From Blumeriella jaapii (lineage: Eukaryota; Ascomycota; Leotiomycetes; Helotiales; Drepanopezizaceae), in the NCBI GenBank assembly GCA_009599575.1, contig VWND01000014.1:310001-374000 (forward strand): DNA of 64,000 bases, given 5' to 3'. Positions within the stretch are counted from its first letter, which is position 1. Each line of letters opens with the position of its first letter. The notes under the pieces are model-generated. The model worked only from the letters and a program-made list of their open reading frames with translations, did not search any database and was not told where the DNA came from. Made by a program: the position numbers and the translations under genes. Shown piece by piece: positions 11,401 to 38,158 of this stretch.

Positions 11401-11449
11401 TTTTTTTGTAATTGGAAAACAGCTTTTTTCGTATTTCAGCGATTTTTTA

Positions 11450-12900: not shown

Positions 12901-12940
12901 TGCAGAAAAAAGCTTATTAATTGGCTCCGGAGCTTATAAT

Positions 12941-14245: not shown

Positions 14246-14278
14246 ATTCGCGATGCCAGCCGAAATAATAACGCGAAT
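14246..14278 (-). repeat. 33 bp near-palindrome, E2 copy 1, locus 2
   Basis: Arms ATTCGCGATGCCA and TAATAACGCGAAT; partner of 32883..32915. Starts 63 bases before the next copy. Confidence 0.88.
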
Positions 14279-14308
14279 ACTTTTTCGGCCCGAGAATTAA
14301 TATTTTTT

Positions 14309-14341
14309 ATTCGCGGTGCTAGCCGAAATAGCAACGCGAAT
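14309..14341 (-). repeat. 33 bp near-palindrome, E2 copy 1, locus 1
   Basis: Best-preserved copy: arms ATTCGCGGTGCTA and TAGCAACGCGAAT pair at 12 of 13 positions around a 7-base centre. Partner of 32820..32852. Confidence 0.9.
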
Positions 14342-14803
14342 GGTTTTGGTTTTGTAGAATTTAAAGCGTAAATAACGAAGCAGCCGATTTCGTTAGCAAT
14401 TTATTCGTTAATATTTTATTCGCTTTATTTAGCGAAATTAAACGAATAAAAGCGTTTTCGTTTGGAAAGGCCGTTTGCTGCTGTATTAATTATTTTTTTA
14501 ATATACTTAATTTCGAAGTTTATAAATCGCATCTAAGCTATTTAATTAATAACGAACGCTTTTAATAAATTATTAATTTTTTTATAAAAAGTATCGTTTT
14601 TTGTTTTTATCGATTTATTGCAATATAGTTTTTTAACCGAAAATACTGGCGTCGACAGTCAGAATAATTTCTTTTGCGTCTGGGTTATAATCGATCCGTA
14701 TAAGCGATAGGGCCGATAAAAAGTCGTTTTTAAAAACTTTTATAGCTTTGCTTTGTTTTTTTCCTAAACGAAATCGATTTTTTTTTTTATCGTGGCGTAA
14801 ATA

Positions 14804-14930
14804 ATAGTGGGCTGCCTTCCCATATTTATCCTGCGGGCACTCGGATAATGTGGGGGAAAGCAAGTGTCCCACTGCATCCAAGTGTCCCATCTCAATTCAT
14901 GATTTTTTACGATCGCATTTTATATTTAAA
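14804..14930 (+). repeat. Left terminal inverted repeat of TIR element
   Basis: It pairs with 16039..16165 in inverse orientation. The match includes ATAGTGGGCTGCCTTCCCA, the two AAGTGTCCCA boxes and ACGATCGCATTTTATAT, and then decays. The outer region has kept its G+C, unlike the E2 host around it. Confidence 0.9.
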
Positions 14931-15300
14931 CATTATTATTTAATTACGCCAAATTGAAAGGTAATAAAAGCAAGAAGCTATTTTTAGATTTTAAAATAAA
15001 AATTTCATTTTTATTAATTAAAAGTTATTAAATTATATATTTTCATTAAATTTTCTATTTTTTATTATCGCATTTTATATCAAAACACTATTAACGTCAG
15101 ATATTTAATTATAATAAGTTGATAAATAATAAAAACAGAAAGCTATTATTAAATCATAAGTTAAAAGTTTCATTTTTATTAATTAAAAGTTTTAAAACAA
15201 AATGTTTTGTTTTGATTTTTAATTTTTATAATCGCATTTTAAATTAAAATACTTCCAACGCCAGTTATTTAATTATAATAAACTGAATAAAAGTAAATTC
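14905..15300 (+). repeat. Subterminal tandem repeats of TIR element
   Basis: Three diverged units of about 155-160 bp start near 14905, 15058 and 15215. Each has a (T)n...ATCGCATTTTA block followed by TATTTAATTA and, in the first two, TTCATTTTTATTAATTAAAAG. The first unit overlaps the TIR tip, so the array looks like repeated duplication of the inner TIR end. Confidence 0.65.
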
Positions 15301-16038
15301 AGCTTGTATTCGAATAGAATTTATAGAAAACATATTAAATTCTACGTCGGAACATTCATTTTTGATTAAGTGAAAGTAATTTAAATCGTTTTTGTACGCA
15401 TTTCCAATCAGAAATTGTATTAATTAAACGGCTACGAATCGTACAGATACAATATACTTTTATTAAAACTAAATAAAGCTTATATTTTTTTTTTAGCTTT
15501 CTTGCTATTTTACATATGCTTTTCAGCTTTTAAATATCGGTATAATATTTATATTCGGAAGGTAAAAAACAAAAGGCAAAAGGTAAAAGAAAACCGTTAG
15601 TTTTACGAAAAGCTTTTGCTTAAGCGTATAATAAATAAAAGAAGCTGCTTACGAACCTTGGATTTTAGGTTATAAAAGCAATAAAGCTGTAAAGCAAAAA
15701 AAAAATCGTATTTAAAATAATAAATTGCATTTTTTTAGCCGAAAATCTTGATATATAATAAAACGCGAGCTTAATAAAGCTTTTATAATTATCGAATAGC
15801 TTATAACCGATTAAAAAGGTTAATCTGAATTATGATAAAAAATATTTTAATTGCAAACAAATGTAAATAGGCTTTCTAAAAGCGAAAAAGCGAAAAAAAA
15901 ATTGAAAATGCGTACAAAACACTTATTTAAATTAGTTTTTATTAATAAAATTTAACTTTTTAATTTAAAATCTGAAAATAACTGCTTGGTTTTATTATAG
16001 TTTAATCTAATGTAATTTAATATCTGGCGTTGATAGTG

Positions 16039-16165
16039 TTTTAATATAAAATGCGATCGTAAAAAATCATGAACTGAGATGGGACACTTGGATGCAGTGG
16101 GACACTTGCTTTCCCCTACATTATCCGAGTGCCCGCAGGATAAATGTGGGAAGGCAGCCCACTAT
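16039..16165 (-). repeat. Right terminal inverted repeat of TIR element
   Basis: This is the inverse partner of 14804..14930. The adjacent TA (16166..16167) is followed by GATGCAG, which lines up with AATACAG in the empty site of E2 copy 2 after G-to-A changes. Confidence 0.9.
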
Positions 16166-16167
16166 TA

Positions 16168-17250
16168 GATGCAGCTTTCTAAGAAAAATTTTTGATTTAA
16201 TTACGGTAGTAAATCATAACGCTAATAAAAGTTTTGGCTTCGGTAATATTTTTACACCTTTTTTATTCGTAAATCTTTTTAATTTTTTTTCGTTAAAAAT
16301 AGCGGCCAGCGCTATTAGTTATATAACCGACGATATTTATTTCGGGCATATAAAATTTTAATCGAAGGCCAATAATAGCTTTGGCTTTTTCGAAGCAGAC
16401 TATGATTTTGTCGATATTTTAAATATATTTTATTATATAATATCGAATTTTAAAAAAGATTTTTTTATTGTTATAATATAATCTGAGACTTTTTATTTTA
16501 ACGTCGTTAACGTAAAAAAAAGTAATATCAGAAATGCAAATTATAAGGATTTTGTATACGATTTTTACGAATTGGACGATTGAATTAATGGCTTTTATAA
16601 GTATTTTGGTTATACGCAGTAAACCGATTGGAATTTAAATTGCCGTTATATTTCGAAATCGTGGGTTAAATACTAAGTGGTCGTAGCCGAAAAACAGATC
16701 GAAAAAAAAAGCGATCGTTAGTTTTGCGAATTCGTTCGAAAATTAATCGACGTTAAATAGCACGTTAGCGTTTCGTATCGTTATTTTATTTATTTCGACG
16801 ATTGCGGTAATAAGTTTATAAATACTTTTTTTTTTTTCGTAACGATAAATTATTTGTTTTTGTATAGGCCGTAGCAAAATTTAAAAATCTTTTGTTTAAT
16901 TCGTTTTTTTAGTATTTCGATTATTTTATTTTGGAAAGCTTTAAAAACTGAAAAGGTTTTTTTTTGCCAAGCTTCGTAAAATACGGTTTTGATATCGATA
17001 TAAAGCGTAACGTTAAAATTAAATTGGCCTATTTCGGTAAAATCGAAGGTTATAGCCTTTTTTCGATTGCGTAGAATTTCGTATAAAATTTTTTTTTTTT
17101 AATAAAAATAAAATTCCGATTGTTAAATTATCAAATCGTTTTTTTATAAATCGGCTGCCAAATAATAGGCTAGAAAATCGGCCGGTAATAAATCTTTCGA
17201 GTTTGCTAGTAATTAATTAAAATAGTTTTGTTGTTTTATTTTTTTTAAAC
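16168..17250 (-). pseudogene. pol: E2 copy 1 reverse transcriptase remnant
   Basis: Read leftward on the minus strand, this is the RT of E2. It includes a NKSIYK/AIVEINK region (about 16800..16700) and the catalytic box as YVND at 16514..16503 (first Asp of YVDD changed to Asn). The CMPEINIV-like thumb start lies near 16350. The sequence aligns throughout with 31430..32195 of copy 2. Multiple stops are present. The two frames on the plus strand here are shadows. Confidence 0.85.
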
Positions 17251-17650
17251 CAATCGTTTATTTTCCGGGAATATTTCCATCGGATTCGCTAAAATTCACG
17301 AATCGTATTTTATTAGCTTTGCGTTTGTAAAAAGTGTTAATATTAATATAAAAAAATAAAATATATAAATCGGGTTTATTTAATACGAAAACGAAATCTT
17401 CGAAGTTTTTATTTCCGAGTTAATAATCAAAAATGTTAATATTAGCTAATTTTATTCGCGATGCTATTTCGATTAATAACGTAAATGCTTTTGGCTAAGT
17501 ATTTTCTAGGTTTTATTATAGTCCAGCGTTTGTTTTAAAACTAAAGCCGGCTATTTGTTTTTTGATAAAACGTCGATTAAAAAGATTTTGTCGCCGGCGA
17601 CGGTGATTTAATTTTGGAAAAATCGGTTTTAGTTTCAAAAAAAAGCTTTT
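17251..17650 (-). pseudogene. pol: E2 copy 1 linker between protease and RT
   Basis: Minus-strand coding remnant matches 30,700..31,140 of copy 2. It contains one 33 bp near-palindrome (17454..17486). No known catalytic motif is expected or seen here. Confidence 0.65.
17454..17486 (-). repeat. 33 bp near-palindrome, E2 copy 1, locus 3
   Basis: Arms ATTCGCGATGCTA and TAATAACGTAAAT; in the protease-RT linker. Partner of 30865..30897. Confidence 0.87.
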
Positions 17651-18060
17651 ATCTGGCCGTTTTCGATGTATTTGAAATTAACGAAACTTTTCAAAATCCA
17701 GGGCATTTTAAAAATAATAAAATAAAAGCACTTTTTTATTATTAAAATTTTTTTATAAATAATAATATTTTCGACGTCGACTTTTATATTTCGTATAATT
17801 TTATTAAATTTAATAATATTTTTATTAACGATAATATAAATTATTCGTTTATCGGTGATAATCGGGATATTACTGGCTTCGGCTGTTTTTTGGTTTATGC
17901 AATTGACTTCGGTTTTATTATCGAATAAAACGAAGGCGGTTATGCTTTTTTTAAGTATAATTTTTATTTTTAGCGCTTTTATGATCGTATAAAAGCAATT
18001 TCGTCGTTTTGACTTTTAGGTTTTTATAGCGAGGGCCAAAAGGCTGATTTTTTCTAAAAA
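17651..18060 (-). pseudogene. pol: E2 copy 1 retropepsin-like protease remnant
   Basis: The minus strand aligns with the uninterrupted protease frame of copy 2 (30312..30653), including the AEINYINQ-like segment after the active site (about 17930..17890). Its function would have been cleavage of the Gag-Pol precursor. It is broken by stops. Confidence 0.78.
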
Positions 18061-20130
18061 TTCCTTTTTATCGGCTAAATTAACTGCGATATTGTAAATT
18101 TCTTTTTAGTTTTTTTTAATTCAAAATCGTTTCTTTTTCAAATAATTTTAATTTTTTCGTTTTTTTTTAATATAAAAATTTATTTATTAATAATTTTATC
18201 GAATCTTTTTTCTATATTAAATAAATCGCTGAATTTTAATTTAATTTTTTATTTTATAATTTTTTTAATAGTTTCGTCGACGGCTTCGAAGCTAATATAT
18301 TTGTCGATCCATTTTTCGCTTCGCATTAATAATAAGCGCTTAAAAGCTGATATTTTCTGAATAATTTGAATCGAAGTGTCGGTGTCGATATTTTTTATAT
18401 CGTCGTTAATTTTTTCTATTATAAGCGTTTTTTTAATAGTTTTATCGGTTTTTTTTCGAATTTCAAAATTTTTTTTCTTTTCGATTTTAACGTTTTTTTT
18501 TATATTAATTGGTTTGGCGAATAGGACAAAAGCATTTTGCTTTTTTATAATTCGTTGGCTTGATTATACAGCTATAATATTTGCAGATGCGATACTTGCA
18601 TTAGCAATATATATTTTTGTTTTTTATTTATATATTTAAATTCTATTTACGCTTAGAATAAGGGTTTTTTTTTTGATTAATACGCTTTTTGAAATATTTT
18701 CTTTTTTATTAATAAAAATCGTTTTCGCATTTTTTCTGTTTTTTAAACAGTCGTTTTATTCCGTACTTTTTATTTTTAAGCGAATAATATTTAATTAGCT
18801 TTGATTTTCAGCTTTGTTAAAAAGGCTTATTTCTGCTTTCGTCGGTCCGAAGCAAATCGTTCCGTATTTATTAATATAGCAAACGTTATTATTTATACAG
18901 AAATTAAATGCTTTGTATTTAAAGCGAATATAAGATTTTTCGTAATAAATTTCTTTGTTATTACAAAATTTATATTTAGGGCCACGGAATCTGTTTTAAT
19001 AATTATTTTTATTATTTTAATAGCCGCGATTTTGGTTTTCGCGTTGATTTTTTTTTTTTTTTAATAATCGTTATTATAATTAGTATTTCGCTAATTCTGA
19101 TCGCTAATACAAAAAAGTTGCTACTAGACAGCTATTATTTTTACGATAGCTTGGCGAGGCTGATCGTTTCGCGTATTTTAAAAGGAATAGTTATTGTAAA
19201 AGCTATTTTAATTGTTTTTATTATCCGAGTTAACGTAAAAGAGTTCTGCTGCTGTATAAAATCTTCGATTTTGTTTTAAAATCCTTAAATTTTAATATCG
19301 GTAAATTTTAATACGAAAGTTTCGATATTTTTGTTAAGCTTTTTCAAGCCTATAAGCTTTGCAAAACGGCTAAATAATATAATAACTGGTTGTTTTTTGG
19401 CGATTTCGGTAATTTTTAATGGCTGGGCATATTTTTATATTAGAACTTTCACGTTTTTTTTATAAGTAAGAAAGAAAGATTTCTTTTGGTTTATAGCTTT
19501 AATAATACGTTCGTTTTAATTTTGCTTAAAAACGAATTCCACAAATTTGAAATACTAATCGAAGGTTTTAAAGTTTTATTTATTAATTTTAAAATGCTTA
19601 ATAGTTTTATTGCGAATGTTAATTAGAAAGCCAAGTAAAAACAATTTTTTCTGCTTAATTTCGTTTAAAATCTTTTTGTTAATAAAAACGTTAAAAACTT
19701 TCGTATAAGTACGATAATAAATCTTGAGTTTTTTGGCTTGGCGAGTTGTTATAACAAACTGTTTAAAAAAAGCGATGGTATCGCGAATTTGCTAACGATC
19801 GTAGTTTCGGAATTTCGATTTTAAAGCTTTAATTAATTTACGCTAATTTCGAGCCTTAATAGTTTTTTATTTATTTATCGATTTAATAATATTTTTAATA
19901 ATTAGATTATAATAGCGAAAGAGTTTATCGAACATTTTAATTTCAAAAACTTCGAAATTCTCACAGGTTTTCTTATATTTTTCGATAAAATCGGTAACGT
20001 TGGCGCTATTAAATAAGGGTGCACCAGAGGAGTTAAGGAGAGGTATGCGGCCTCGCATAAGAAAACGAAAGGCGTCGTTGTTTATAATATTAATAAAAAT
20101 GTTAATAAGATTTAAATTAAACGAATAAAT
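18061..20130 (-). pseudogene. gag: E2 copy 1 gag and nucleocapsid remnant
   Basis: The minus-strand frame near 20058..19867 reads MRGRIPLLNSSGAPLFNSANVTDFIEKY, a typical start of a retrotransposon capsid domain (retrotrans_gag type). The capsid continues to about 19,300. Downstream (18,960..18,790) a YYN-NKYKxxCFGPT-like stretch resembles a degenerate zinc-knuckle region that leads toward protease. Copy 2 shows the same order at 28,230..30,300. Plus-strand open frames at 18376 and 18801 are shadows produced by T-rich RIP sequence. Confidence 0.8.
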
Positions 20131-20829
20131 GTTTTCCGGAATTGTAAATTAAAGATTTTCAAAATAAAAGGAATCGTTTGTAATAAGGGAGTTATTAAAA
20201 AAGTTTTTGTGTTTTTTAAAAAAATTAAATAAAATAAGATTGCGTTTAAATATTTAAATAACGTATTAAAAAATTTATTTTTTAGTAAATTAATTAAATT
20301 GATATAATATTGTTATATAATCCACGGTTTCGATATTTCGTAGCTTAGGCTAATATACGTACAGCCATTTTTTTATTATTTTTAATAAAAAGCCGCAAAT
20401 TGTAATTGTTATAATTACAAAGCGCAAAATTAAAAGATTAAGTTTTCGCTAAGCGTTTGACCAAAAAAAATCTAATTTAAAAAGGCCGAGCGCAGCGGTC
20501 GAAGCGTACGAACTAATATTCGATTTGTTATTTTTAAACAAAAAAGCGATTTTCGAACTTTAAACTTCGCACGGTTTAAAATTGCCTGACCGTAATTTCA
20601 AACGTTTTTAAAATGTATTGCATTTTTGTAATTTAATAATTATGCGCAAGCTAAAAAAAGCTATTAAAAATCTTTTATATAATGTAACTGCGAATAATAT
20701 TATATAAAAAATCTTTTAAGCCGTAATAGCGAAATATCGAAGTCGGTCTTGATTGTAAATTTAAAAAATACATCGGCGAATATATAAAAACGAAACACCG
20801 AAGTTTAAATCTTTGCGTAAATTATCAAA
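20131..20829 (-). other. E2 copy 1 leader
   Basis: Untranslated leader between 5' LTR and gag, matched by 27517..28230 in copy 2. It includes a conserved segment around GACCGCTGCGCTCGG (about 20484..20500) that has stayed G+C-rich in both copies. No primer-binding site could be assigned. Confidence 0.6.
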
Positions 20830-21096
20830 TATAAAAATAAATAAAAAAACCAGATTGATACGGCTATATATCGGTAAGTAAAATAATTTAGAGAATTTTT
20901 AAAAAAAACTGAAAAAAGAAAAAGAAAAATAAAAAAAAGTATGAATTAAACTGCGTATTTATAATACTATCTAAGGGAATGCTTTGCTCTTATACCTTTT
21001 GAAAATAGTCAATGGCAGGGGGTCTCGGAAGGGTTTATGCCTCGACCATAGCTAAAACTACCAACTTCCATCAATACAAGGTATCACCGTTTTACA
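20830..21096 (-). repeat. E2 copy 1 5' LTR
   Basis: This 267 bp LTR in minus orientation starts TGTAAAACGG (right end) and ends with a RIP-changed TTTTTATA on the left. It matches 27250..27516 and 38256..38523. It has a TATAAGAG box where the other copies have TATAAAAG. Confidence 0.93.
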
Positions 21097-23430: not shown

Positions 23431-23486
23431 TTCGGAAAATCAGCTTGAAAGCGTGTGCAGTAATTTGGCAGATGGAAATTAAATAA

Positions 23487-23491
23487 GCAGT
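23487..23491 (+). other. Target-site duplication GCAGT (left) of E1-C
   Basis: GCAGT precedes the E1-C LTR and recurs at 41187..41191 directly after its 3' LTR. The two flanks together restore the continuous E1-B linker, as seen in E1-D near 45985. Confidence 0.92.
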
Positions 23492-23761
23492 TGTGACGAT
23501 TCACTCTGTTGCCACCTCTCGTGTCACCTTAGCAACTACGTATAGCTGCAAGCTCTCTGGTCTTTTGGTGGGTCTTCCTATCAACTGTGGAAATTATTCA
23601 TATATATAAGGCTTTTTTTTTTTAGCAACTTCTGCCTTTTGCAATTGTTGATTTTAAATGAATATTTTTGTTACAAAACCAAAGGCTCGTTTTTTTATAT
23701 TATGTAAATACGGCGACCAATTGACTGATCTTTTAGCCTTTCGATTAATTAAATCGTTATA
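23492..23761 (+). repeat. E1-C 5' LTR
   Basis: This 270 bp LTR begins TGTGACGATTCACTC and ends ATCGTTATA (CA to TA). It belongs to the GTTGCCACCTC subtype shared with E1-B and E1-G. A poly-T block replaces the CTCTCCCC seen in less mutated LTRs. Confidence 0.94.
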
Positions 23762-24099
23762 TTATTAATAATTTTTTCTACGCTGGCGACGGCGTAAATT
23801 ATTTTTTCTTTCGAATTTCTTACGGATTATACCAAAATGATCGACCGGTCGTAAAAAAGCTTATTTTCGTATTTTGCGAAAAATGGCTTTTGTTTAACGA
23901 TTTCTTTTTTAGCAAAGCTTTTCAACTTCTGCTATTATATCTTAATTTTTTTTTTAATCAACGAAAAAGCAGCCTCCCCCAAAAGCTTTTTTTTTTAAAA
24001 AACAGTCCTTTCTCCGAGGAAAAAAAAACAAAAGAAAAGGCAAAGCGTTCACTATTTCGTTTGCCACTTTTTTTTTGCAGCTTAGCGCTGAAAGCATTT

Positions 24100-25340: not shown

Positions 25341-25389
25341 CCAGTCGGAAAAACGCCCAGGCCTAAGCAAAGTTTTTTTTTTAGGCGTA

Positions 25390-25581
25390 TTGCGCGATAT
25401 GCGTTATTTTAACGTTCGAAAGCTTTTTGATAGCGATTTATTAACAATTCCCGTTATATTTATTAAAAATGGCTTTTCGTATAAAATAAAAGCGCTCGCC
25501 GATTTTGGAACGAACGGTTATACGTTGATCGATTCGGCGCTGATCAAGTTTTTTTTTTTTTTTTTAAAATCTTTGATTTAA
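25390..25581 (+). pseudogene. pol: E1-C retropepsin-like protease remnant
   Basis: A 63-codon open stretch reads LLTIPVIFIKNGFSYKIKAL and then ADFGTNGYTLIDSALI. The last part is the active-site region of a retroviral-type aspartic protease, with the DSG triad changed to DFG at 25501..25509 (TCT to TTT). The upstream LTIPVIF and downstream TLIDSA strands are typical for the fold. Function would be maturation of Gag-Pol; loss of the nucleophile-supporting Ser makes it inactive or impaired. Confidence 0.82.
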
Positions 25582-26325
25582 TTTTTTTCGGCTTTTTTTT
25601 TTGTAAAAAGGTATAATAAAGCTTGTGGCTATTTAATTATATATTTTACGTTTTTTAATTTTATTATTGATAATCGAATATAATCGTTTATTTCTTTTTT
25701 AATTATTAACCTCGGAAATTATAGTATGATTTTAGAAAAAGCTTGGTTGGCCGAATATCAAGTTTTATTAAACTGTAATAAACGCAAACTTTATTAGCCG
25801 AAGTCTTATTTTTCTACAGCTTTTTACGCTTATTGTATTAAAGTTTTTTATTTGCATTTCCGAAAGATTTAATTTCGCCATTAAAACGACGCTATAAAAC
25901 GTGATAAAAACTTCGACCAATTGTGGCAGGCCTACGACGCTGTGCGGAGCGCGAAAAAATCGAATTTTATTCGCGGTGTTAATTTCGATGTCGACGCCAG
26001 TGGGATAATACAAGAAATTATACTATTACTTTTCCAGGCTGACGATTTCTTTTTTATTATTTTTTTTTTCTTTTTTTTTTTTTTTTTTTTTTTTAAAAAC
26101 AGCTTTTTCGTTCCACGAAGAACAGTTATATTAAAAACCGAAAAAAAACCTTCGCCGCGATAGCCTTTTAGTTTAATATAATCGATAATTTAGATAAGCT
26201 ATTTTCTGAATCTTTTAAACGACCAGTTCGAAAACGAGTTTTTTAATCTACTGCTTATTCAATTTCTATCTGTCAGATTATTATATACGTTTTTAAGCTG
26301 ATTTTTAAAAAAGAAACAGTTAAAG
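25582..26325 (+). pseudogene. pol: E1-C linker between protease and RT
   Basis: Coding remnant (open 25921..26163: AYDAVRSAKKSNFIRGVNFD, later VPRRTVILKTEKKPSP) that joins protease to RT. It contains a 33 bp near-palindrome in frame (25969..26001) and then a 24-base T run at about 26062..26093 derived from a Ser/Phe codon tract. No enzymatic motif. Confidence 0.65.
25969..26001 (+). repeat. 33 bp near-palindrome, E1-C
   Basis: E1-locus copy, read IRGVNFDVDAS in the linker frame. Confidence 0.85.
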
Positions 26326-27249
26326 TGTTTTTAATTTTTTTGTACGAGATCGACAGAATATTAAACGATTTTACGTATAATATTTTTTTTAAAATTTAAT
26401 TTTATAGTTTTTTCGAACGTTTCAGAACGAACGAAATATCGATTTCGACCTTTTTAATTAGCTTAGCGGAGCTAATTTCGAATAAACTTTTTTTCGAATT
26501 TTTTTCTCCGGAATATAAAGATTTCGAACACGTGTTTTTTAAAGCCGCCAGCAACGAGCTAGCTTTTTACCGGTTTTACGACCATAAAATCGAGCTTATT
26601 ATAAGTGAGAAAAAGCTGAAATATATTTTTTTGTATAAAATGTCGATTCCAAAGCTCGAGATTGTTAAGATTTATTTGCAAAATAATTTTAATAAAAGTT
26701 TTATCGAATTTTTTACCGCTTTTTTCGCTGTTTTAGTGCTTTTCGTTAAAAAACCCGACGGTTTATTGCGTTTTTGTATCGATTATCGAGCTTTTAATAA
26801 TATTATTCGTAAGGATTGCTATTTTTTTTTTTTTATCGATAAGATTTTTGTTCGTTTTTCGAAAGCGCGAATTTTTACGAAGCTCGATATTCGTTAAGCT
26901 TTTTATAAAATTCGAATGGATTCCGCTAGTAAAAAACTGACGACGTTTCGTACGCGTTACGGCGCTTATAAATGCAAGATGTTATCTTTTGGTTTTATTA
27001 ATGGATTCGCAATTTATTAACGTTATATGAACGACGTTTTTTTCGATTATTTAAACGATTTTTGCATTGTATATTTGAATAATATTTTTATTTATTCGTT
27101 CGATTTTTTAAAATACGTTATATACGTTCGCAAGGTGTTTCAAAAGTTCGCTGACGCTGAATTACAGGCCGATATTCGGAAATCTGAATTTAACGTTATT
27201 CGGATCCGTTATTTAGATTTTATTATTTCGATTAAAAGTTTGAAAATAG
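26326..27249 (+). pseudogene. pol: E1-C reverse transcriptase remnant
   Basis: RT fingers and palm are readable: KKPDGLLRFCIDYRAFNNIIRKD, then ARIFTKLDIR (26880). The catalytic box is YLNN at 27072..27083. The thumb start FQKFADAELQADIRKSEFNV (27140..27200) leads to the break at 27249 where E2 copy 2 is inserted. Downstream coding resumes at 38528 (KVSVVAYW-like). All Asp loss is by G-to-A change. Confidence 0.9.
27246..27249 (+). other. Target-site duplication ATAG (left) of E2 copy 2
   Basis: ATAG abuts the E2 5' LTR and recurs at 38524..38527 directly after the 3' LTR. Joining the flanks gives AAAATAGATTTAAAAAAAG, collinear with E1-A at 1265..1282. Confidence 0.9.
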
Positions 27250-27516
27250 TGTAAAACGGTGATACCTTGTATTAATAGAAGTTGGTAGTTTTAGCTAAGG
27301 TCGAGGCATGGACCCCTCCGAAACCCTCTGCCATTGACTACCTTTAACAGATATAAAAGCAAAGCACCCCTTTAAATAGTACCATAAGCACGCAGTCCAA
27401 TTCATATTTTTACTTATTCTTCTTTTCCTTTTTTCAGTTTCTTCTAGGGATTCCTTAAACTATTTTATCTACCGATATATGGCCGTATTAATCTGGTTTT
27501 CCTACCTACTTTTATA
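27250..27516 (+). repeat. E2 copy 2 5' LTR
   Basis: This 267 bp LTR starts TGTAAAACGG and ends TACTTTTATA (CA to TA). The middle keeps the GGACCCCTCCGAAACCCTC block little changed. Confidence 0.94.
27352..27359 (+). promoter_or_regulatory. Putative TATA box of E2 LTR
   Basis: TATAAAAG at this position recurs at 38358..38365 in the 3' LTR and as TATAAGAG in copy 1. It is the likely pol II promoter core of the element. Confidence 0.55.
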
Positions 27517-28230
27517 TTTAATAACCTACGCAAAAATTCAAACTTCGATGTTTCGTTTTTATATATTCGCCGATGCATTTTTTAAATTTATAATTAAAAT
27601 CGACTTCGATATTTCGCCACTACGGCTTAAAAAACTTCTCATATGGTATTATTCGCAGCTGCATCATATAAAAGACCTTTAATAGCTTTTTCTATCTTAC
27701 GCATAGTTATTGAATTACAAAAATACAATATATCTTAAAAACGTTTAAAATTACGGTCAAACAATCCTGAACCGTGCGAAGTTTAAAATTCGAAAATCGC
27801 TTTTTTGTTTAAAAATAACAAATCGAATATTAATTTATACGCTTCGACCGCTGCGCTCGGCCCTTCTGAACTAAATCTTTTTTGGTCAAACGCCTGGCGA
27901 AAACTCAACTTTCTAATCTTACGCTTTATAATTATAACAATTACAATTTGCAACTTTTTATTAGAAATAATAAAAAAATAGCTGTACGTGCATTGGCCTG
28001 AGCCACGAAATATCGAAACCGTAGATCATATAGCAATATTATATCAATTTAATTAATTTATTAAAAAACAAATTCTTCGATATATTATCTAAATGTTTGG
28101 ACGCAACCTTATTTCATTTAATTCCTTCAGAAAACACAAAAACTTTCTTAATAGCTCCTTTATTAAAAACGATTTTTTTATATTAAAAACTTACAATCTG
28201 CAACTTCAAAAAACATTTATTTATCTAATT
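27517..28230 (+). other. E2 copy 2 leader
   Basis: Leader between LTR and gag; no primer-binding site recognised. The short open frame 27479..27682 crosses the LTR boundary and is not supported as a gene. Confidence 0.6.
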
Positions 28231-30300
28231 CAAACCCTACTAATACTTTCGCTAACATCATAAACAACGACGCTCTTCGTTTTCTTATGCGAGGCCGTAT
28301 GCCCTTCCCTGGCTTTTTTAATACATCCTTATTTAATAGCGCTAATATTACCGATTTTATCGAAAAATATAAAAAAAACCTGTAAGAATTTCGAAATCTT
28401 TGAAACTGAAATATTCGATAAACTTCTTCGCTATTATAACCTAACCATTAAAAATATTATCAAATCGATAAATAAATAAAAGGTTATTAAAGCTCGAAAC
28501 TAGCGTAAGCTAATTAAAATTTTAAAATCGGAATTCCGAAACTACGATCGCCAGCAAATTCGCGATATTATCGCTTTTTTTAAATAGTTTATTATAATAA
28601 CTCGCCAAGCCAAAAAACTCAAAATCTATTATCGTATTTATACGAAAGTTTCTAACGTTTTCGTTAATAAAAAAATCCTAAGCGAAATTAAACAAAAAAA
28701 ATTGTTTTTATTTAGCTTTCCAACTAATATTCGCAACAAAACCATTAAGCATTTTAAAATTAATAAGCAAAACCTTAAAACCTTCGATTAATATTTCAAA
28801 TTTATAAAATTCGTTTTTAAACAAAACCAAAGCGAACGTATTATTAAAGTTATAAATCAAAAGAAATTTCTATTTCCTATTTACAAAAAAACGTAAAAGC
28901 TTTAATATAAAAATATGCCTAACCATTAAAAATTACCGAAATCGCTAAAAAACAATCAATTATTATATTATTTAATCGTTCTGCAAAACTTATTAACTTG
29001 GAAAAACTTAACAAAAATATCGAAACTTTCGTGTTAAAATTTACCGATATTAAAATTCAAAAATTTTAAAACAAAATCGAAAGTTTTATGCAACAGCAAA
29101 AAAAACTTTTTTACGTTAACTCGAATAACGAAAACGATTAAAATAGCTTTTACAACAACTATTCCTTTTAAAATGCGCGAAGCGATTAGCTTCGCTAAGC
29201 TATCGTAAAAGTAATAGCTGCCCAATAGCAACCTTCTCGTATTAACGATCAAAATCAGCGAAATACTAATTATAATAACGATTATCAAAAGAAAAAAAAA
29301 AACCAACGCGAAAACCAAAATCGCGGCTATTAAAATAATAAAAATAATTATTAAAACAGATTTCGTAGCCTTAAATATAAATTTTATAATAATAAAGAAA
29401 TTTATTGCGAAAAATCTTATATTCGCTCAGAATACAAAGTATTTAATTTTTATATAAATAATAATATTTATTATATTAACAAATATAAAACGATTTGCTT
29501 CGGACCGACGAAAGCAGAAATAAACCTTTTTAACAAAATTAAAAACCAAAGCTAATTAAATATTATTCGCTTAAAAATAAAAGGTACGAAATGGAACGAT
29601 TGTTTAAAAAACAAAAAAAATGCAAAAACGATCTTTATTAATAAAAAAAAAAACATCTCCGAAAGCGTATTAATTAAAAAAAAAACCTTTATCTTAAATA
29701 TAAATAAAATTCAAATATATAAATAAAAAATAAATATATATATTTCCAATGCAAATATCGCATCTGCAAATATTATAGCTGCATAATTAAATCAGCGAAT
29801 CACAAAAAAGCAAAATGCTTCTGTCTTATTCGCTAAACCGACTAATATAAAAAAAAACGTTAGAATCGAAAAAAAAAAAAATTTTGAAATTCGAAAAAAA
29901 ACCGATAAAATTATTAAAAAAACGCTTATAATAAAAAAAATTAACGACGATATAAACGATATCGACACCGACATCCCGATTCAAATTATTTAGAAAATCT
30001 CAATTTCTAAACGCTTATTATTAATACGAAGCGAAAAATAAATCGATAAATATATCAGCTCCGAAGCCGTCGACGAAGCTATTAAAAAAATCATAAAACA
30101 AAAAATTAAATTAAAATTCAACGATTTATTTAGCATAAAAAAGAAATTCGATAAAGTTATTAATAAACAAATCCTTATATTAAAAAAAAACGAAAAGATT
30201 AAAATCATCCGAAAAAAAAACGATTTTAAATTAAAAAAAAACCAAAAGGAAATTTACAACACCGCAATCAATTTAGCCGATAAAAAAAAATTCTCGGAAA
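28231..30300 (+). pseudogene. gag: E2 copy 2 gag and nucleocapsid remnant
   Basis: Frames give FLMRGRMPFPGF, then NSANITDFIEKYKK, ETEIFDKLLRYYNL and FRNYDRQQIRDII, a helical capsid-type Gag domain (about 28280..28800). A continuation runs to about 29,350. A poorly preserved Cys-bearing stretch around 29,400..29,520 includes CFGPTKAEI on one frame and probably derives from the nucleocapsid/zinc-knuckle zone. Then a charged linker continues to the protease. Long minus-strand open frames at 29034, 29792 and 29990 are shadows. Stops are all of the C-to-T or G-to-A type. Confidence 0.78.
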
Positions 30301-30700
30301 AAATCAGCCTTTTGGCTTTTGTTATAAAAACCCAAAAGTTAAAACGACGAAACTGCTTCTATACGGCTATAAAAGCATTAAAAATAAAAATAATACTTAA
30401 AAAAAATACGACCGCTTTCGTTCTACTCGATAATAAAGCCGAAATCAATTATATAAACCAGAAAACGGCAAAAGCCAATAATATCCCGATTATTACCGAT
30501 AAACGAATAATTTATACGATCGTTAATAAAAATATTATTAAATTCGACGGAATTATACGAAATATTAAAATCGACGTTAAAAATATTATTATTTATAAAA
30601 ACTTTTTAATAATAAAAAAATACTTTTATCCTATTATTTTTAAAATGTCTTAAATCTTGGAAAATCTCGTTAATTTCAAATACACCGAGAACGGCCAAAT
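30301..30700 (+). pseudogene. pol: E2 copy 2 retropepsin-like protease remnant
   Basis: An open frame of 113 codons (30312..30653) contains TTAFVLLDNKAEINYINQKTAKAN. This is the active-site loop and following strand of a retropepsin, with the expected DSG reading DNK at 30429..30437. The second half (FDGIIRNIKIDVKNIIIYKNFLII, ending YPIIFKM) corresponds to the second lobe with its G-M/W end. It would process Gag-Pol; the active site is destroyed. Confidence 0.82.
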
Positions 30701-31429
30701 AAAAATCTTTTTCTGAAACTGAAACCGATTTTTTTAAAATTAAATTATCGTCGCCGGCGATAAAATCTCTTTAATCGACGTTTTATCGAGAAACGAATAG
30801 CCGACTTTGATTCCAAAACAAACGCTGAGTTTTAATAAAACCTGGAAAATATTCGGCTAAAAGCATTCACGTTATTAATCGAAATAACACCGCGAATAAA
30901 ATTGGCCAATATTAATATTTTTAATTATTAATTCGGAAATAAAAGTTTCGAAAATTTCGTTTTCGTATTAAACAAACCCGATTTATATACTCTACCTTTT
31001 TGTATTAATATCAGCATTTTTTACAAGCGCAAAACTAATAAAATACGATTCGTAAACTTTAGCGAATCCGATAGAAATATTCCCGAAGATTAACGATTGA
31101 TTTGAAAAAAATAAAACAACAAAACCATTTTAACCAATTATTAGCGAGCTCGAAAAACTTATTACCGGCCGATTTTCCAACTTATTATTTAACAGCCGAT
31201 TTATAAAAAAACGATTTGATAACTTAGCAATCGGAACCCAATTTTTGCCAAAAGAAAAAAAGATTTTATACAAAGTTTTACGCAATCGAAAAAAAATTAT
31301 AATTTTCGATTTCACCGAAATAAACCAATTCAGCTTTAACGTTACGTTCTATATCGATATCAAAACCGTATTTTACGAAGTCTGGCAAAAAAAAACCTTT
31401 TTAATTCCTAAAACTTTTTAAAACAAAAT
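30701..31429 (+). pseudogene. pol: E2 copy 2 linker between protease and RT
   Basis: Coding remnant with an NFVFVLNKPDLYTLPF segment (about 30950..31000). It carries a 33 bp near-palindrome at 30865..30897 in frame (AFTLLIEITPRI). Confidence 0.65.
30865..30897 (+). repeat. 33 bp near-palindrome, E2 copy 2, locus 3
   Basis: Arms ATTCACGTTATTA and AACACCGCGAAT-type; read FTLLIEITPRI. Confidence 0.87.
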
Positions 31430-32200
31430 AATCGAAATGTTAAAAAAACGAATCAAACAAAAAATCCTCGAATTTTGCCACGGCCTATATAAAAACAAAT
31501 AATTTATCGTTGCGAAAAAAAAGAAAAGCATTTACAAACTTATTATCGCAATCGTCGAAATAAATAAAATAACGATACGAAACGCTAACGTACCACTTAA
31601 CGTCGATTAATTTTCAAACGAATTCGCAAAACTAACGATCGCTTCTCTTCTCGATTTGTTTTTCGGCTACGACTATTTAATGCTTAATCTACGATTTCGA
31701 AATATAACGGTAATTCAAATTCTAATCGGTCTACTGCGCATAACGAAAATACTTATAAAAGCTACTAATTTAATCGCTTAATTCGTAAAAATCGTATACA
31801 AAATCCTTATAATTTGCATTCCTGATATTGCCCTTTTTTACGTTAACGATGTTAAAATAAAAAACCCTAAATTATATTATAATAATAAAAAAATCTTTTC
31901 TGAAATTCGACGCTATATAATAAAACATATTTAAAACATCGACAAAATTATAATTTGCTTCGAAAAAGCCAAAGCTATTATTGGCCTTTGATTAAAATTC
32001 TGCATGCCCGAAATAAATATCGTTAATTATATAATTAATAGCGTTAGCCGCTATTTTTAACGAAAAAAAATTAAAAAAATTTAAAAAAATCTGCGAATAA
32101 AAAAAATACGAAAATATTATCGAAACCAAAACTTTTATTAGCGTTATAATTTACTACCGCAATTAAATTAAAAACTTTTTTTAAAAAACTGTATTTATTT
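31430..32200 (+). pseudogene. pol: E2 copy 2 reverse transcriptase remnant
   Basis: The frame gives FIVAKKKKSIYKLIIAIVEIN (fingers), NVDEFSNEFA and the palm (ASLLDLFFGYDYLML, first catalytic Asp region). Then come IGLLRITKILIKATNLIAQFV (equivalent to the LPFGLxNAPxTFQ block) and the catalytic box FYVND (YVND at 31839..31850, one Asp lost). Next is FCMPEINIVNYI (thumb). This is a retrotransposon type common in Pezizomycotina with VDD rather than YLDD before the RIP changes. Numerous stops. Confidence 0.88.
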
Positions 32201-32819
32201 ACGCTACGATAAAAAAAAAAATCGATTTCGTTTGAAAAAAAAAACAAAACAAAACCATAAAAGTTTTTAAAAACGACTTTTTATCGGCCCTATCGCTTAT
32301 GCGGATCGATTATAGCCCAGACGCAAAAAAAATCATTTTAATTATCGACGCCAATATTTTCGGTTAGGAAATTGTATTACAACAAATCGATAAAAATAAA
32401 AAACGGTATTTTTCACGATTCGAAAGCGGCTTATAATCCTCCGCTAAAGCACGCTACGATGCTATCAAACGAAAATATCGAAGCGCTTTTAAAATAATAA
32501 AAAAAATAAAAAGCGAATTATACGGCGTGCATTTTATTTTGAAAACAAACGTAAAAATTTTTGTCGATTAATTAAATAAAAAAGTTAATAATTTATTAAA
32601 AACGCTCGTTATTAATTAAATAGCCTGGATACGACTTATAAACTTCGAAATCAAACATATTAAAAAAACAACTAATATAACGGCAAACGACTTTTTCAAA
32701 CGAAAACGTTTTTATCCGTTTAATTTCGCTGAAAAAAGCGAACAAAATATTAACGAATAAATTGCTAACGAAATCGGCTGCTTCGTTATCTACGCCCTAA
32801 GTTTTATAAAATCAAAACC

Positions 32820-32852
32820 ATTCGCGTTGCTATTTCGGTTAGCACCGCGAAT
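32820..32852 (+). repeat. 33 bp near-palindrome, E2 copy 2, locus 1
   Basis: Arms ATTCGCGTTGCTA and TAGCACCGCGAAT; read FALLFRLAPRI. Confidence 0.9.
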
Positions 32853-32882
32853 AAAAAACATTAATTTTCGGGCCGAAAAAGT

Positions 32883-32915
32883 ATTCGCGTTATTATTTCG
32901 GCTAGCACCGCGAAT
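32883..32915 (+). repeat. 33 bp near-palindrome, E2 copy 2, locus 2
   Basis: Arms ATTCGCGTTATTA and TAGCACCGCGAAT; read FALLFRLAPRI, 63 bases after locus 1 and in the same phase. Confidence 0.9.
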
Positions 32916-32930
32916 AAATTTGACCGAAAA

Positions 32931-34450
32931 CGATCGGAATAAGCCGATTAACGACGAAAATAACTTTTTAATCGATAATTATAAAACCGAAGACTTTTAT
33001 TTTATCGCATATTATTTAATTACGTTATTTAAATTATTTAATATATTAAATTATTAGTTTAAATTATTTAAAAACCAGGCTTTCGATTATATTTTAGCCG
33101 ACAGAAAGCTGTACAAAATAAAAAATAATATATATTAAAAACGCTTAGTAATAAATAATAAAACCGATAAATTTCAAATTATAAAAAAAGCTTACGAAGA
33201 AATGTTTTATAAAAAAGCTGAAGCCATTTATTACCGAATCAAAAACGATTTTTGATAAAAAAAATGCTTCGAAGATTGCAAAGCTTTCGTTAAATTGCAT
33301 TTTTTATTAAAAACGAAAGCCTGGCCGAAAAAAAAACTTATTATATCCGACGTAATTTTTTAAAATCTGAAAAAAAATTAATCTCGATATTATACGCGTA
33401 TTAATCACCGATCGCGGCTATATATACTTCGTATTCGCTATTAACGACTTATTTAAATGGCTTGAAAAGCGACTTTTCCGAAACGCCATTTTCGAAGCTA
33501 TAGCGACTTTTTTTTAAAAAAACGTTATATATCGACACGGTTTGTTTAGCAAGCTAAACGTTAATAATAAACCCGAAAACAAAAGCGTTATCGAAATTTT
33601 TATAAAAAAATACAATATTTAACGCATTTAAATTTCAGCTTATAATTCGAAAAGCAACGGATTCGTTAAACAAAGCTATAGAAATATTTTCGACGGCCTA
33701 TCAAAAGCCATTCGAAAAAATTATAAGCGTTAATCGCGGAAATTCTCGGAAATGCTTTTTATTATACGCATATATATATACGCTTTTATTAAAATAATTT
33801 CATTTTTCATTTAATACGGCAGAAACGCTCGACTGCTTCTGAAAACAAAATAACCTGTATAAAAGTTTTATAACATAATTAAAATAAAAACGAAAGCGGA
33901 TCTATTAGTAATAAAATCTAAACAGTTAAATTACCGCGATATAAATATAAAAAAAATAATTCTAAAAAAAAAAAAGTATAAAAAAGCAGCTAAAAAAATC
34001 TAAAATAAAACCAAGGTTTTAAAAAAAATATTAATTAAAAAAAAAAATCTGATTTTAATTTACGACGTTTAGCGCGCTATTAATAAATCGGCCGATACTA
34101 AACTTAATTATAAATAGCTCGGACTTTACGAAATATACAAAGCCGAGTTAAATAAAAGCTATTATAAGCTTACGAAACTCGATAAAACAAAACTAAAAAC
34201 GTTCGCCGCCAATCGGTTAAAGCGGTTTTACAAAAAAAACTAGCAAATTTACTCTCTAAATTTTAATTTAAATAGCGATTCCGATTTTAGCGATTCCGAC
34301 GACGATTCCGATCAAAACGATTATACTTTTAAAAAAAAAAAACCTTTTGAAAAGGTCTGAAAACAGCCGAACGACGACCCCGCTGCTAAAAACACAATTC
34401 AAATCGTGATTCTATTTATAACCGAAAAAAAAAAAAATATATACAAAATT
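32931..34450 (+). pseudogene. pol: E2 copy 2 integrase remnant
   Basis: Zinc-domain remnant around 33,100..33,300 (YKADAIYYRIKND-type, CFEDCKAFVK) precedes the DDE core: ITDRGYIYFVFAINDLFKW (about 33400..33450), YRHGLFSKLNVNNKPENKS (33530..33590, second Asp changed) and ISAYNSKSNGFVKQ (33630..33680; the catalytic Glu reads as Lys). The C-terminus has LIYDVQRAINKSADTKLNYKWLGLYEIYKAE, the GPY/F-like module. An acidic SDSDFSDSDDDSD tail lies at 34270..34320. No chromodomain is seen. The site 33913..33917 is where the copia element sits in copy 1. Confidence 0.85.
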
Positions 34451-34985
34451 GTTTATTAATTGTTCTACTGTTTTTGTTGTTTATTGTTTTTTCTTTTTAT
34501 TATACGCTATTTTATTATTTTTATTTTTATATATATTATTTATTTTTGAAACCTTTTTTTATATTGTTTAGAACACCTATTATACTTTTTTTTGTTTGAT
34601 TATACTTTTGTTTACCAAAACAAAAGCTTTGTATATGCTTAAGCCGCATATCTAATATATTTATATTATTCGCATATTCTACGAAAACTATTTTTTATAT
34701 ATTTTATTATTTGCTATTTTCTGCATTGTTTATTTTTTTTCGTTATTTTAAACGGATGCCTGCTTAAACAGCTATAATCTATTGGAAAAACAGTATGCGG
34801 ATTCTCGTAATTTTTGGATACAAATACTTTATAATCTTCGTATTTTTTTTTATTTACTTTTTAACAAATATAACATATCTTTTTAATTAACAAACCCATC
34901 GACACCATATCGTTCCTTAAGCAAAGCGTTGCTAAATTTAGCAAATTTATTTTTAATTTATTTTAAAACGGAACTATTATACGCA
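34451..34985 (+). other. E2 spacer between integrase and ORF3
   Basis: T-rich, non-coding stretch also present in copy 1 at 4560..3990. It might hold a secondary promoter for ORF3, but I see no specific element. Confidence 0.5.
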
Positions 34986-37900
34986 ACTTTTTCGAATTTA
35001 AGCAAGTATATAATGCCGTCATCTCAAATTAACAAACAGCTTTCGTAAAAACATTTATAAAACAATTCGATATAATAACTAGAAATATCAACGAATTTCT
35101 ATTCGATTACGAAAGCTTCGTCAAAGCTAAATTCGTCCGCAAAAGCTTTGATTACGACAAATTCTTATTAAATTACAACAACGCTTCAAAAGCTTTCGCC
35201 GGAACAAAAAAGCTCGAAATAATAAAAAAAAAATAACCGACCGAATATTGCGCTTTTTATTAAATCAACGAAAAAAAAAAATTTAAAAATACGTTTTTAG
35301 CAAAATCACCGGTATTATTTTATTTCGACACCTCGCTCGCTTTTTCGAAATTATTACTTTTATTAAAAAAAAAATTTAAATATTAAACGCTTATATTTTT
35401 AAAACGCAAGCCCTAAAAGCCAATAACCCAAAAGCCCGCAGATTCACAAGCTTTTTTACGGCTGTTTGCAAACTGATCGACGACGCTATACAATCGCCAA
35501 AAAAAGTCTTAGTCGGCTGCGAAATTTTAAATTTAACCCTTTTTTAAAGCAAAAAACTAAGCGTCGCTAAATGCGATATTTTTATACCGAAAAAAAAAAA
35601 CGACGCTATTCCGATATTTTAAATCTACGACGACAAAAAAAACGAAAAAGCTAATATTATCCTCGTTTAATTCGAAAAAATATACGCGGTAGCAACTAAT
35701 ATTTTCAAAACAGCTAAAACAATTCGACGATTTTTACTTTTAATTATCGAAAACGAATCCGAAAACGAAACCAAAAGCGTAATAACAAACAACCGCTTAT
35801 TCGAATATAAAAAATTTATTATATTTGTAAAAACGATTCCGGAAAAAGTAAAAACAAAAAACGTAGAAAAGCGCGCCGATATTTTCGAAATTTTTTTTAT
35901 TTGAAAAAAAAAATTATTCACGTCGCTAACAAAAAAAGCACCGCGAATAAAAACAGCCGGAAATCAACGCCGAATTATAAGTTTTAAACTAATTAATAGA
36001 AAACGCGACGACTCTACAAAATCAAACTTAAAAAACCTTAACACCTCGAAAAAAAAAAATTTAAACGATTTTAAATCTGATTTTTCGAAATTAAATACGC
36101 AAATACCAAAAACGCTTACTGCGTTTAAAAACGTCGAACCGCTAATATTTTAAACTTTAATAAAAGCATTTAAGATTTCGATTATTGCGCGATTCGACCG
36201 AAAAAGCTTAAAAAAAAATATCGAAATTATCGCGAAAAAAATCATATAAAAAGCACAAAATCAAATTATTTTGCTTAAAACTTTCGCTTTCGACGACGAA
36301 ACAATTTAAAAATTTTATTTCGACATTTTTATATAAAAATCAAATAAATCCGTTAGCTTTTTCCTTTTTGCATCGAACGAAAACTAAATCAAGCTTTTTT
36401 CGAAAAATTACAAATATAATACGCTAAAGCAAATAAAAAAAACTTTTAAAAATAATAACCCGTTTTTATTCGAGTTTTTTTTCGCTGAAAAACTCCGATT
36501 TTTTAATTTCGTTTTTACGAATAACGTTAACGCTAAAAAAAACGGCAAATTTTGCTATTTTTATATACGCTGTTACGCGGCGTATTGCGATTTAATTACA
36601 AAAAAAATCGACGTTATCGGCTTCGCTAATCGATTCGCTGCTATTAAAAATTCGAATTACGACGTGTTCGAAATTGATTTTAATAACCAGTTTATATTTC
36701 GACGAAAAACTGCGAAAATTACCTAAGCACGTGCTAAAGCTTATTTGGGCTACGCAAATTTTAAAGCAAATTCTAAAGCATTTAGCGCGATTACAAAGCT
36801 CGATTAAAACGTAGAAAAATGAAAGCAACGAATATTTCCAAAAGCCGATTTTTCTGGTTTTTCGACCGAAAATATATTTTAAAATCTATCTGAATTAAAC
36901 TGCGAATTCGTTAATTACGTAAGATTTTATAACGAAAAAAACAAACCACTGCTGTATTTTATAAAAAAAAAGATAGCTATATACAAATACTATTTCCGAT
37001 TGGTTAAAATCTAAAAAGCATTTACAATTTTCTTCGCTAATATATTTTACAATCTTATTTAATAAGCTTTTAAAATGCATCCCGGCCTTTATTTCGCTGC
37101 TTTAATTATTCGAAATTCCGAAAACTGCCGCTTCGTAGTTTATTTTAACGTTTCGATCGCTTTAGGCTTCGCTAATTCCGACCGTATTATAATCACAAAA
37201 TTCGATATCGCCGATTTTTAAAAAAAGAAAAAAATCGAAAACTTTATCGACGCTATCCTCGATTATTACGTTTTGTCTGTTTTCGCATACAACTCGAAAA
37301 TAATCGAAGCTTACCTGCAATTATACTACGACGCAAAGCTAACTAAAACCATTTAAAAAAGCCCAGCTTTCTTGTATTTCAGCGCGTCTAAAGCAGTGGC
37401 CTCGGCTATTTCATCGGATTACGAAACCGAAAGCTACGAAATAAAAAATAAAATAACTTTTGTTAGCTTTTCGATTAAGCAAAAAGTTTTCGTTAAATTC
37501 AAAATTCAAAAAACCGACGGCGTAATACTAATTTATTCGAATAATTACACAGCGCAAAAATATAAAAATTATTTCGAAAACGATAATCCGATAAGCAATT
37601 TAATATTGTTTATACTGCGGCGAAAGCAATCACAGCACTTTCGGTAATCGCGATTACAAACGATTATTTCCGAATTATTTCGTAAAATAATTTTTTTTAC
37701 AGGCCTCGGAATCTTTTCAAAAGCATTCGTCGGTAAATAATCGTAATCCGATCCATTAATTTTACGCGAAATAAAAGCGTTAATCGGTTTTAATTACGAC
37801 GAACTAATCGATTATTTTTACGATTTCAATATAAGATTTTTCAACGCCTTTTGCAAAGCGTAAAACCACGTATAAAAACTAAAATTTATTATTTACGAAA

Positions 37901-38158
37901 AAAAGTCGTAGAAAACATTCGTCGCGGCGATATTTAATAATATTATCGACGAAAAAGCTATCAGAACGTTTGTAAATCTAAACGATACCTCGATTAATAT
38001 TTTATCGAACCATTTTTTAAAAAAGCAAAATAAACAAAATAATTCAAACGATAAGCGAAACGCTATTTCTCCGCAGAAACCAATAGCAAAAAGGCCAAAA
38101 ACGAATTAAAAAACCGAAAAAATATAAAATTAAAAAGTTCGGTTTTTAATTAATTGGT
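34986..38158 (+). pseudogene. E2 ORF3: long unassigned ORF between integrase and 3' LTR
   Basis: From about 35000 one frame runs (LFDYESFVKAKFVRKSFDYD...) to a poly-A frameshift near 35280. A second frame then continues in phase to 38158 (about 960 codons), broken only by codons that single C-to-T or G-to-A changes would make from Gln, Arg or Trp. Readable segments include VLVGCEILNL, FCYFYIRCYAAYCDL, NYDVFEIDFNNQF and ARAKAYLGYANF. Further on are NCEFVNYVRFYNEKNKPLLYF, HPGLYFAALIIRNSE and a 91-codon uninterrupted part 37372..37647 ending LILFILRRKQSQHFR. I recognise no domain, signal peptide or clear membrane helix. It is a third ORF of the element, or a gene captured by it. One 33 bp palindrome lies inside at 35916..35948. 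Confidence 0.6.
35916..35948 (+). repeat. 33 bp near-palindrome in E2 ORF3, locus 4
   Basis: Arms ATTCACGTCGCTA and AAGCACCGCGAAT; read FTSLTKKAPRI, same phase as the other E2 loci. Confidence 0.82.

Follow-up and report, generated by a model that had tools for sequence, protein, structure and literature searches.

The stretch of DNA analysed here, which we call the window, comprises 64,000 nucleotides of the Blumeriella jaapii genome (positions 310001-374000 of contig VWND01000014.1; assembly of 47.4 Mb in 91 contigs) and carries a short palindromic module that recurs at five sites inside two families of long terminal repeat (LTR) retrotransposons, E1 and E2. The window is rich in nested repeats, most of which are 82-89% identical across long alignments, and its GC content is 24-43% across the pieces measured and 24-38% in 2-kb steps. 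Repeat copies differ almost solely by transitions, the pattern that repeat-induced point mutation (RIP) would leave. The E2 pol region matches RT_RNaseH models and distant relatives with reverse transcriptase (RT), RNase H and integrase domains, while E1 carries RVT_1 and RNase H domains (Pfam). The pol pieces of the two families barely align (best 23% over 84 aa, E 0.055), in agreement with a previous reading of the window, made from the letters alone (the sequence-only reading), that the families are unrelated outside the module. Pfam identified no protease in the element pieces scanned, and the label "protease-RT linker" used in that reading rests on position upstream of RT and RNase H.

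The carrier elements delimited in the window are:

27240..38521, plus strand: E2 copy 2, LTR retrotransposon with 278-bp end repeats
42334..48747, minus strand: E1 copy, LTR retrotransposon with end repeats of about 260 bp
about 55295-61692: second E1 element, containing the module copy at 59190..59222

The module and its ends

A search with both 13-base arms, allowing at most 8 mismatches, places the module at 13 positions and five sites in the window, the number that the sequence-only reading had given. With at most 3 mismatches there are 10 strand matches, compared with 0 in 100 dinucleotide shuffles. The copies, with the coordinates of their 33-bp form, are:

14246..14278, minus strand: E2 copy 1, site C (RNase H-integrase linker), on the E2 coding strand
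14309..14341, minus strand: E2 copy 1, site B (RNase H-integrase linker), arms pairing at 12 of 13 positions
17454..17486, minus strand: E2 copy 1, site A (linker upstream of RT)
30865..30897, plus strand: E2 copy 2, site A
32820..32852, plus strand: E2 copy 2, site B
32883..32915, plus strand: E2 copy 2, site C
35916..35948, plus strand: E2 copy 2, site D (lysine-rich open frame downstream of the integrase region)
3..35, plus strand: E1 module (linker upstream of RT)
25969..26001, plus strand: E1 module
46237..46269, minus strand: E1 module, in the element at 42334-48747
48890..48922, minus strand: E1 module
59190..59222, minus strand: E1 module, in the element at about 55295-61692
61974..62006, plus strand: E1 module

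Copies little affected by RIP reveal the true sequence of the module. In particular, the least changed E1 copies read C-ACTCGCGGTGCCAATTTCGATGGCGACGCCAGT-G, and in an E2 copy with only light RIP (L087) site B reads CACTCGCGTTGCCATTTCGGCTGGCACCGCGAGTG, with C and G at its two ends and arms that pair at 13 of 14 positions. Column counts, made without the duplicate locus L040 and without rows whose ends are missing, show leftover C at position -1 and leftover G at position +1 in all five sites, with positions -2 and +2 varying by site. Because C and G persist at both ends of all sites, the core is 35 bp, comprising 14-base inverted arms with a conserved internal mismatch around a variable 7-base centre. 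A recurrent module was thus correctly recognised from the letters alone, but its supposed fixed length of 33 bp was not: the ATT...AAT ends of the 33-bp form are largely RIP decay of ACT...AGT. The T at position 3 of 35 is kept in the least RIPed C and D copies and may therefore be original there. The case illustrates how RIP can disguise a short motif, whose true ends became visible here only through un-RIPed relatives from the same genome. The core is flanked on both sides by AAA at sites A, B and D; by eye, the flanks contain no target duplication shared by all five sites.

Genome-wide distribution and reading frame

Searching the whole genome, as the sequence-only reading had proposed, yielded at least 737 forward and at least 788 reverse matches to a strict pattern, and at least 938 plus at least 1,092, or at least 2,030, matches to a directional RIP-tolerant pattern, with 0 matches to the reversed-pattern control in each case. 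Repeat match counts are lower bounds, and a near-perfect copy may count on both strands under the strict pattern. We read by eye 100 of the 2,030 RIP-tolerant matches, all on contig C1. Sorting to the nearest flank class the 107 copies among the loci fetched (without L001-L008) gave 24 for site A, 27 for B, 27 for C, 20 for D and 9 for E1. Three of these copies fit their class badly, with 10 to 13 mismatches among 24 flank bases; they are one place counted twice (L029/L040) and a copy cut by the left end of the window.

Three kinds of search addressed habitats outside E1 and E2. Patterns requiring flanks other than those of E1 and E2, with fixed RIPed ATT or AAT ends that un-RIPed host copies would escape, gave 2 + 1 + 5 + 10 matches (18 loci, 17 places), all of which align to E1 or E2 site neighbourhoods. 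The un-RIPed ACT/AGT form, at up to three mismatches, gave 100 + 94 strand matches and 0 in the control; among the 100 of 194 that were listed, comprising every match with at most two mismatches and part of those with three, the centres are all of E1 or E2 type. Specifically, the 11 perfect E1-type places all lie in E1 (L067, L068, L071, L089-L096), and the sole perfect E2-type place is site B of L087. A search with just the 14-base right arm found 47 places in the genome: the 13 fetched (L102-L114) are all E1 or E2, and the others, judged by coordinates only, coincide with known places or lie at the expected distance from E1 or E2 matches. Within the mismatch limits of these searches, beyond which diverged copies would be missed, and among the matches listed, no module site was found in a host gene or another element family, and the module appears confined to reverse-transcribed sequences. 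Viral contigs contained no E2 relative and no exact pattern match, and prokaryote contigs gave 0 exact matches to the un-RIPed pattern, the only form of it searched there.

Carriers chosen by their protein, rather than by the module, are uniformly occupied. E2 copies were found through public relatives (P0001-P0009) that are 27-36% identical to E2 pol; this search gave 74 matches, 38 of them spanning RT (best of 2,055 candidates scored). Sites B and C are both present in 12 of 12 RNase H-integrase linkers, mostly from the best-scoring copies, and site A is present in 8 of 8 upstream linkers, one with a 1-base deletion. For E1, the module is present in 20 of 20 linkers picked from 142 RT matches. 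Several E1 copies are un-RIPed, with open frames of 698-1,312 aa and linker GC of 0.47-0.50; such long-frame copies lie on contigs C7, C15, C8, C14, C19 and C3 beside many RIPed ones, which implies that E1 was active recently or in a RIP-free phase.

The module is read in frame, as the sequence-only reading had held. The four E2 sites are translated in one phase and direction, F-A/T-x-L-...-A-P-R-I. In L087 the peptide is P-L-A-L-P-F-R-L-A-P-R-V-K at site B and A-F-A-S-P-F-R-L-A-P-R-V-D at site C, and those of sites A and D likewise end in A-P-R-I/V. The E1 peptide is T-R-G-A-N-F-D-G-D-A-S in un-RIPed copies and I/T-R-G-A-N-F-D in the window. Module frames are open except for RIP-type stops, and in one E2 copy (L019) a single frame runs from site A through site B and aligns with relatives. 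Of the 14 copies free of large insertions, 6 have an A-to-C distance divisible by three and the others contain small indels; the commonest distances are 2,009 and 2,010, with four copies each. By inspection, at least two of the three module phases are stop-free in each direction, and placement in one phase is for this reason modest evidence when taken alone.

A RIPed E1 piece used as query gave no relatives; the unbroken un-RIPed piece used in its place (779 codons) gave 3,740 protein matches. The 120 listed are 45-70% identical and include, among those named, Monilinia, Clarireedia and a Closterium. Eighty relatives cover the linker that holds the module, and we inspected 40 of the alignments. 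Among the 120, the best match to the module peptide, in several frames, is 7 of 11 residues; for E2, no module was seen in the linkers covered by the alignment of relatives. The closest full-length E1 relative among those listed (P0012; 59% identical, full cover) is exactly 11 residues shorter at the module, with a gap between HQND...N and EIT that is stable under four gap settings. The precise gain that had been suggested as a check is thus seen as a net 11 residues relative to P0012, but not as a pair of occupied and empty loci or as a constant target duplication.

Several further features were observed in the window. A third LTR-like element, E3 (5021-13256; 318-bp end repeats, 89.6% alike), is nested in E2 copy 1 and contains no module at up to 8 mismatches. 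An insertion of 1,366 bp in E2 (14802-16167) has 131-bp terminal inverted repeats 97% alike and a GC content of 0.43 in its ends and 0.25 overall, and is perhaps a DNA transposon or like a miniature inverted-repeat transposable element (MITE). Between E1 copies, a block with a GC content of 0.42 contains GC-rich direct repeats at 51520-51730 and 52690-52900, 93-94% alike and 1.2 kb apart, possibly a short LTR-type element. A perfect 18-base palindrome, TTTGGGTTTAAACCCAAA, lies at 41547-41564, in a stretch with a GC content of 0.43 beside E1. The window has no Rfam match at gathering thresholds.

Origin and spread of the module

The module has one origin, a single ancestral quasi-palindrome. 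When a single copy from each of the five sites is compared, all agree at 19 of 35 columns, including an unbroken run of 11 in the right arm, and they also share the bases that depart from the palindrome; their centres vary. The right arm starts with TGGC, and we considered an origin from a primer-binding site or tRNA; by eye, the sequences that follow the 5' LTR of E2 and of E1 are unlike the module, and this origin was rejected.

The E1 module is probably the inverse of the E2 module, the orientation that had been proposed for it. An ungapped comparison with site B gives 27 of 35 for E1 in both direct and inverted orientation, a value also reached as the maximum over 100 mononucleotide shuffles, but gapped plain scores favour inversion at every site (inverted/direct: 41/13 and 47/15 for two A copies, 40/33 for B, 22/13 for C, 38/15 for D). 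E1 and the second A copy share ATCGAAA-TGGCACCGCGAGTGAAATT, extending five bases beyond the core. Inverted E1 and one site A copy agree at 26 of 27 columns, the remaining column being a gap, across the centre, the right arm and 5 flank bases. RIP-tolerant scores against E1 put site B slightly ahead (57.0, compared with 55.5 and 54.0 for A, 53.0 for C and 48.5 for D), and the link between E1 and A accordingly rests on the plain comparison and the shared centre. Outside the palindrome, the resemblance among E2 sites is lost after a few bases. One transfer between families plus spread inside E2 is enough to explain the distribution; the five sites claimed in the sequence-only reading stand, but their description as independent is softened. 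Apparent confinement to two families, with one transfer able to explain E1, is half of what that reading had named as telling against its proposal; the four E2 sites remain to be explained.

Recombination between sites B and C has occurred in some E2 copies. In two of them (L088, L099) one module has the left flank of B on one side and the right flank of C on the other; a third (L114) also has a single module, with the join in an A-run to its left; and two others (L100, L101) keep two modules, with C carrying the B-type G at position 10. These recombinants were found by pattern, and hence their frequency cannot be given. A further E2 copy (L052; C5:1233450-1233950) has lost a large internal segment: its RNase H-integrase linker runs directly into open reading frame 3 (ORF3) a short way upstream of site D, and the deletion does not end at a module.

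The folded RNA suggested in the sequence-only reading is predicted strongly at three sites: B (-21.0 kcal/mol, z -5.0, equalled by none of 200 shuffles), D (-15.0, z -4.2, again by none) and E1 (-14.4, z -2.4, by 5 of the 200).

Our tentative preference, held with a confidence just short of even, is that the module is a hairpin-forming 35-bp insert of single origin in retrotransposon genomes, spread likely by copy-choice during reverse transcription. Specifically, RT would stall at the hairpin in one RNA, jump at short, often A-rich matches within the same or a co-packaged RNA, and leave behind a patch, which could be inverted, as in E1, if its two near-symmetric arms annealed; and selection for a working pol would remove patches that break the frame. 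The insert would in this way have been placed in frame in variable E2 linkers at four sites and once in E1, and would then have multiplied passively with its carriers to about 2,000 copies and decayed by RIP. Copy-choice at a hairpin can account for the origin, habitat, short flanks, A-rich borders, frame, inversion and collapse. In retroviruses, according to the parts of a review available to us, stem-loops raise template switching, crossovers fall inside paired hairpins, and switching yields insertions, duplications and direct-repeat deletions (PMC3187697). A fungal precedent of a sort, as far as the portion consulted describes it, is provided by Magnaporthe grisea chimeric retrogenes, ascribed to double template jumps of a long interspersed nuclear element (LINE) (PMC2104539).

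Several observations weigh against copy-choice. There is no empty site among the 20 + 12 + 8 protein-chosen linkers and no copy caught in the act, and mobility is therefore not proven. P0012 has a second, 9-residue gap nearby, which means that linker length changes anyway. Site C lacks the downstream AAA run seen at A, B and D. The predicted folds are weak at C (-7.4, z -1.0, 36 shuffles) and A (-7.1, z -1.7, 12), although partly RIPed letters may weaken both. Compensatory changes do not exceed those in shuffles (of 60 cells, 53 or 88.3% are paired, and the single double change is equalled in 180 of 500 shuffles), so that the hairpin can form but selection on it is not shown. The collapse and exchange between B and C could also arise by DNA recombination or replication slippage in dead copies. 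Moreover, the same retroviral review, in the part seen, puts nonhomologous switching at least 1000-fold below homologous switching (PMC3187697), and a study of chromosomal microinversions, likewise seen in part, argues that template switching is a poor fit for inverted repeats that are short and imperfect (PMC8755829).

A bolder claim, which we regard as doubtful, is that the module is a second-order parasite: a 35-bp coding palindrome whose only habitat is retrotransposons, which moves between sites and between unrelated families when they are reverse transcribed together, and which is tolerated for keeping the frame. If true, this would be, as far as found, the first such protein-coding palindromic element in a eukaryotic nucleus. 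Among the matches listed in a search of open-licence papers on fungal and retrotransposon palindromes, judged by title and start of abstract, none describes such an insert.

Among the alternatives, a genome-wide mobile mini-element like those of Rickettsia, moved in trans by an unknown enzyme and surviving mainly in retrotransposons, is unlikely. Its expected features are present in the fixed length, the 14-base inverted arms around a variable 7-base centre, the several sites and the in-frame placing, and the AAA that flanks the core at A, B and D is readable as a short target duplication. However, the at least 2,030 matches and the un-RIPed form yielded no site outside E1 and E2, within the limits given above, and by eye no duplication is common to the five sites. 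Stepwise duplication within E2 by ordinary DNA recombination, with one illegitimate exchange with E1 and without any special role for hairpin or reverse transcription, is improbable: unequal exchange or gene conversion fits the collapse and conversion now seen at B and C, and E1 is most like site A in the plain gapped comparison, but similarity fades just past the palindrome ends, where a segmental duplication is expected to carry flanks.

We consider it improbable, too, that the module is a functional RNA or DNA motif (a packaging or dimer hairpin, or a binding site) captured repeatedly and under selection in both families. The strong hairpins at B, D and E1 and the presence in every protein-sampled carrier would fit such a motif; the pairs broken without compensation between sites, the opposite orientation in E1 and the absence of the peptide from the relatives examined would not. 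Dead copies, in which changes inside the module are nearly all transitions, mutate about like their flanks, an observation that says nothing on live copies. Specifically, mean minor-base fractions in module and flanks are 0.094 and 0.103 at A, 0.033 and 0.077 at B (a low module figure biased by sampling through perfect arms), 0.067 and 0.058 at C, and 0.091 and 0.101 at D, leaving out the rows less than 70% identical to the majority of their site (2 of 23 for A, 2 of 27 for B, 0 of 27 for C, 1 of 20 for D).

A repeat at the level of protein, such as a processing site for the element's protease duplicated at domain borders, is very improbable. The sites do fall in linker regions around the RT, RNase H and integrase domains, and the four E2 peptides share K-x-F/L-A/T-x-x-...-A-P-R-I/V, but E1 reads the same DNA in the other orientation as T-R-G-A-N-F-D-G-D-A-S, the middle of the peptide, where a cut is expected, is its variable part, and a protein repeat gives no reason for a palindrome. 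Chance or a sequencing artefact can be set aside, with 0 matches in 100 shuffles against 10 strand matches in the window and 0 in the reversed control against at least 2,030 in the genome.

Comparison with known palindromic elements

The inverted arms of the module recall MITEs; AAA stands on both sides of the core at A, B and D, no duplication is common to the five sites, and no empty site was seen in the protein-chosen linkers. Targets of tyrosine recombinases (loxP, FRT) have inverted arms of 13-14 bases around a centre of 6-8 bases; the likeness is in layout only, and the arms of the module carry a conserved internal mismatch. PARCEL repeats are likewise palindromic DNA within coding sequence and, in the part of the source seen, are described as tandem 75-nt protein repeats that spread with whole genes (PMC2996958). 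The palindromes of Volvox carteri organelles and nucleus are also eukaryotic, selfish and short, with small loops and lengths of tens of bases; the portion consulted places them in intergenic and intronic organelle DNA and reads the nuclear copies as inert transfers (PMC2670323), whereas the module is nuclear, coding and borne by retrotransposons.

The closest parallel is with the Rickettsia palindromic elements (RPEs) and their Wolbachia and Methanocaldococcus counterparts, which are likewise palindromic, form hairpins and occupy many sites, in frame, in non-critical parts of proteins. According to the passages seen, RPEs are bacterial, 105-146 bp long, also intergenic, and present in many host genes and two RNA genes (PMC2229807, PMC2996958). 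The module shares with them the stem-loop (at B, D and E1; weak at A and C) and, as the sequence-only reading had seen, an in-frame palindrome in variable linkers, but not dispersal through the genome: it is 35 bp long and found only inside two fungal retrotransposon families, without the RPE habitat of host genes and intergenic DNA. As length and habitat differ, we do not class it as an RPE. To our knowledge, it has not become clear how selfish palindromes of the Rickettsia kind get into protein genes; a carrier that is itself reverse transcribed suggests a concrete, testable route, namely template switching driven by the hairpin, and suggests an ability of such inserts to pass from one element family into another, unrelated one.

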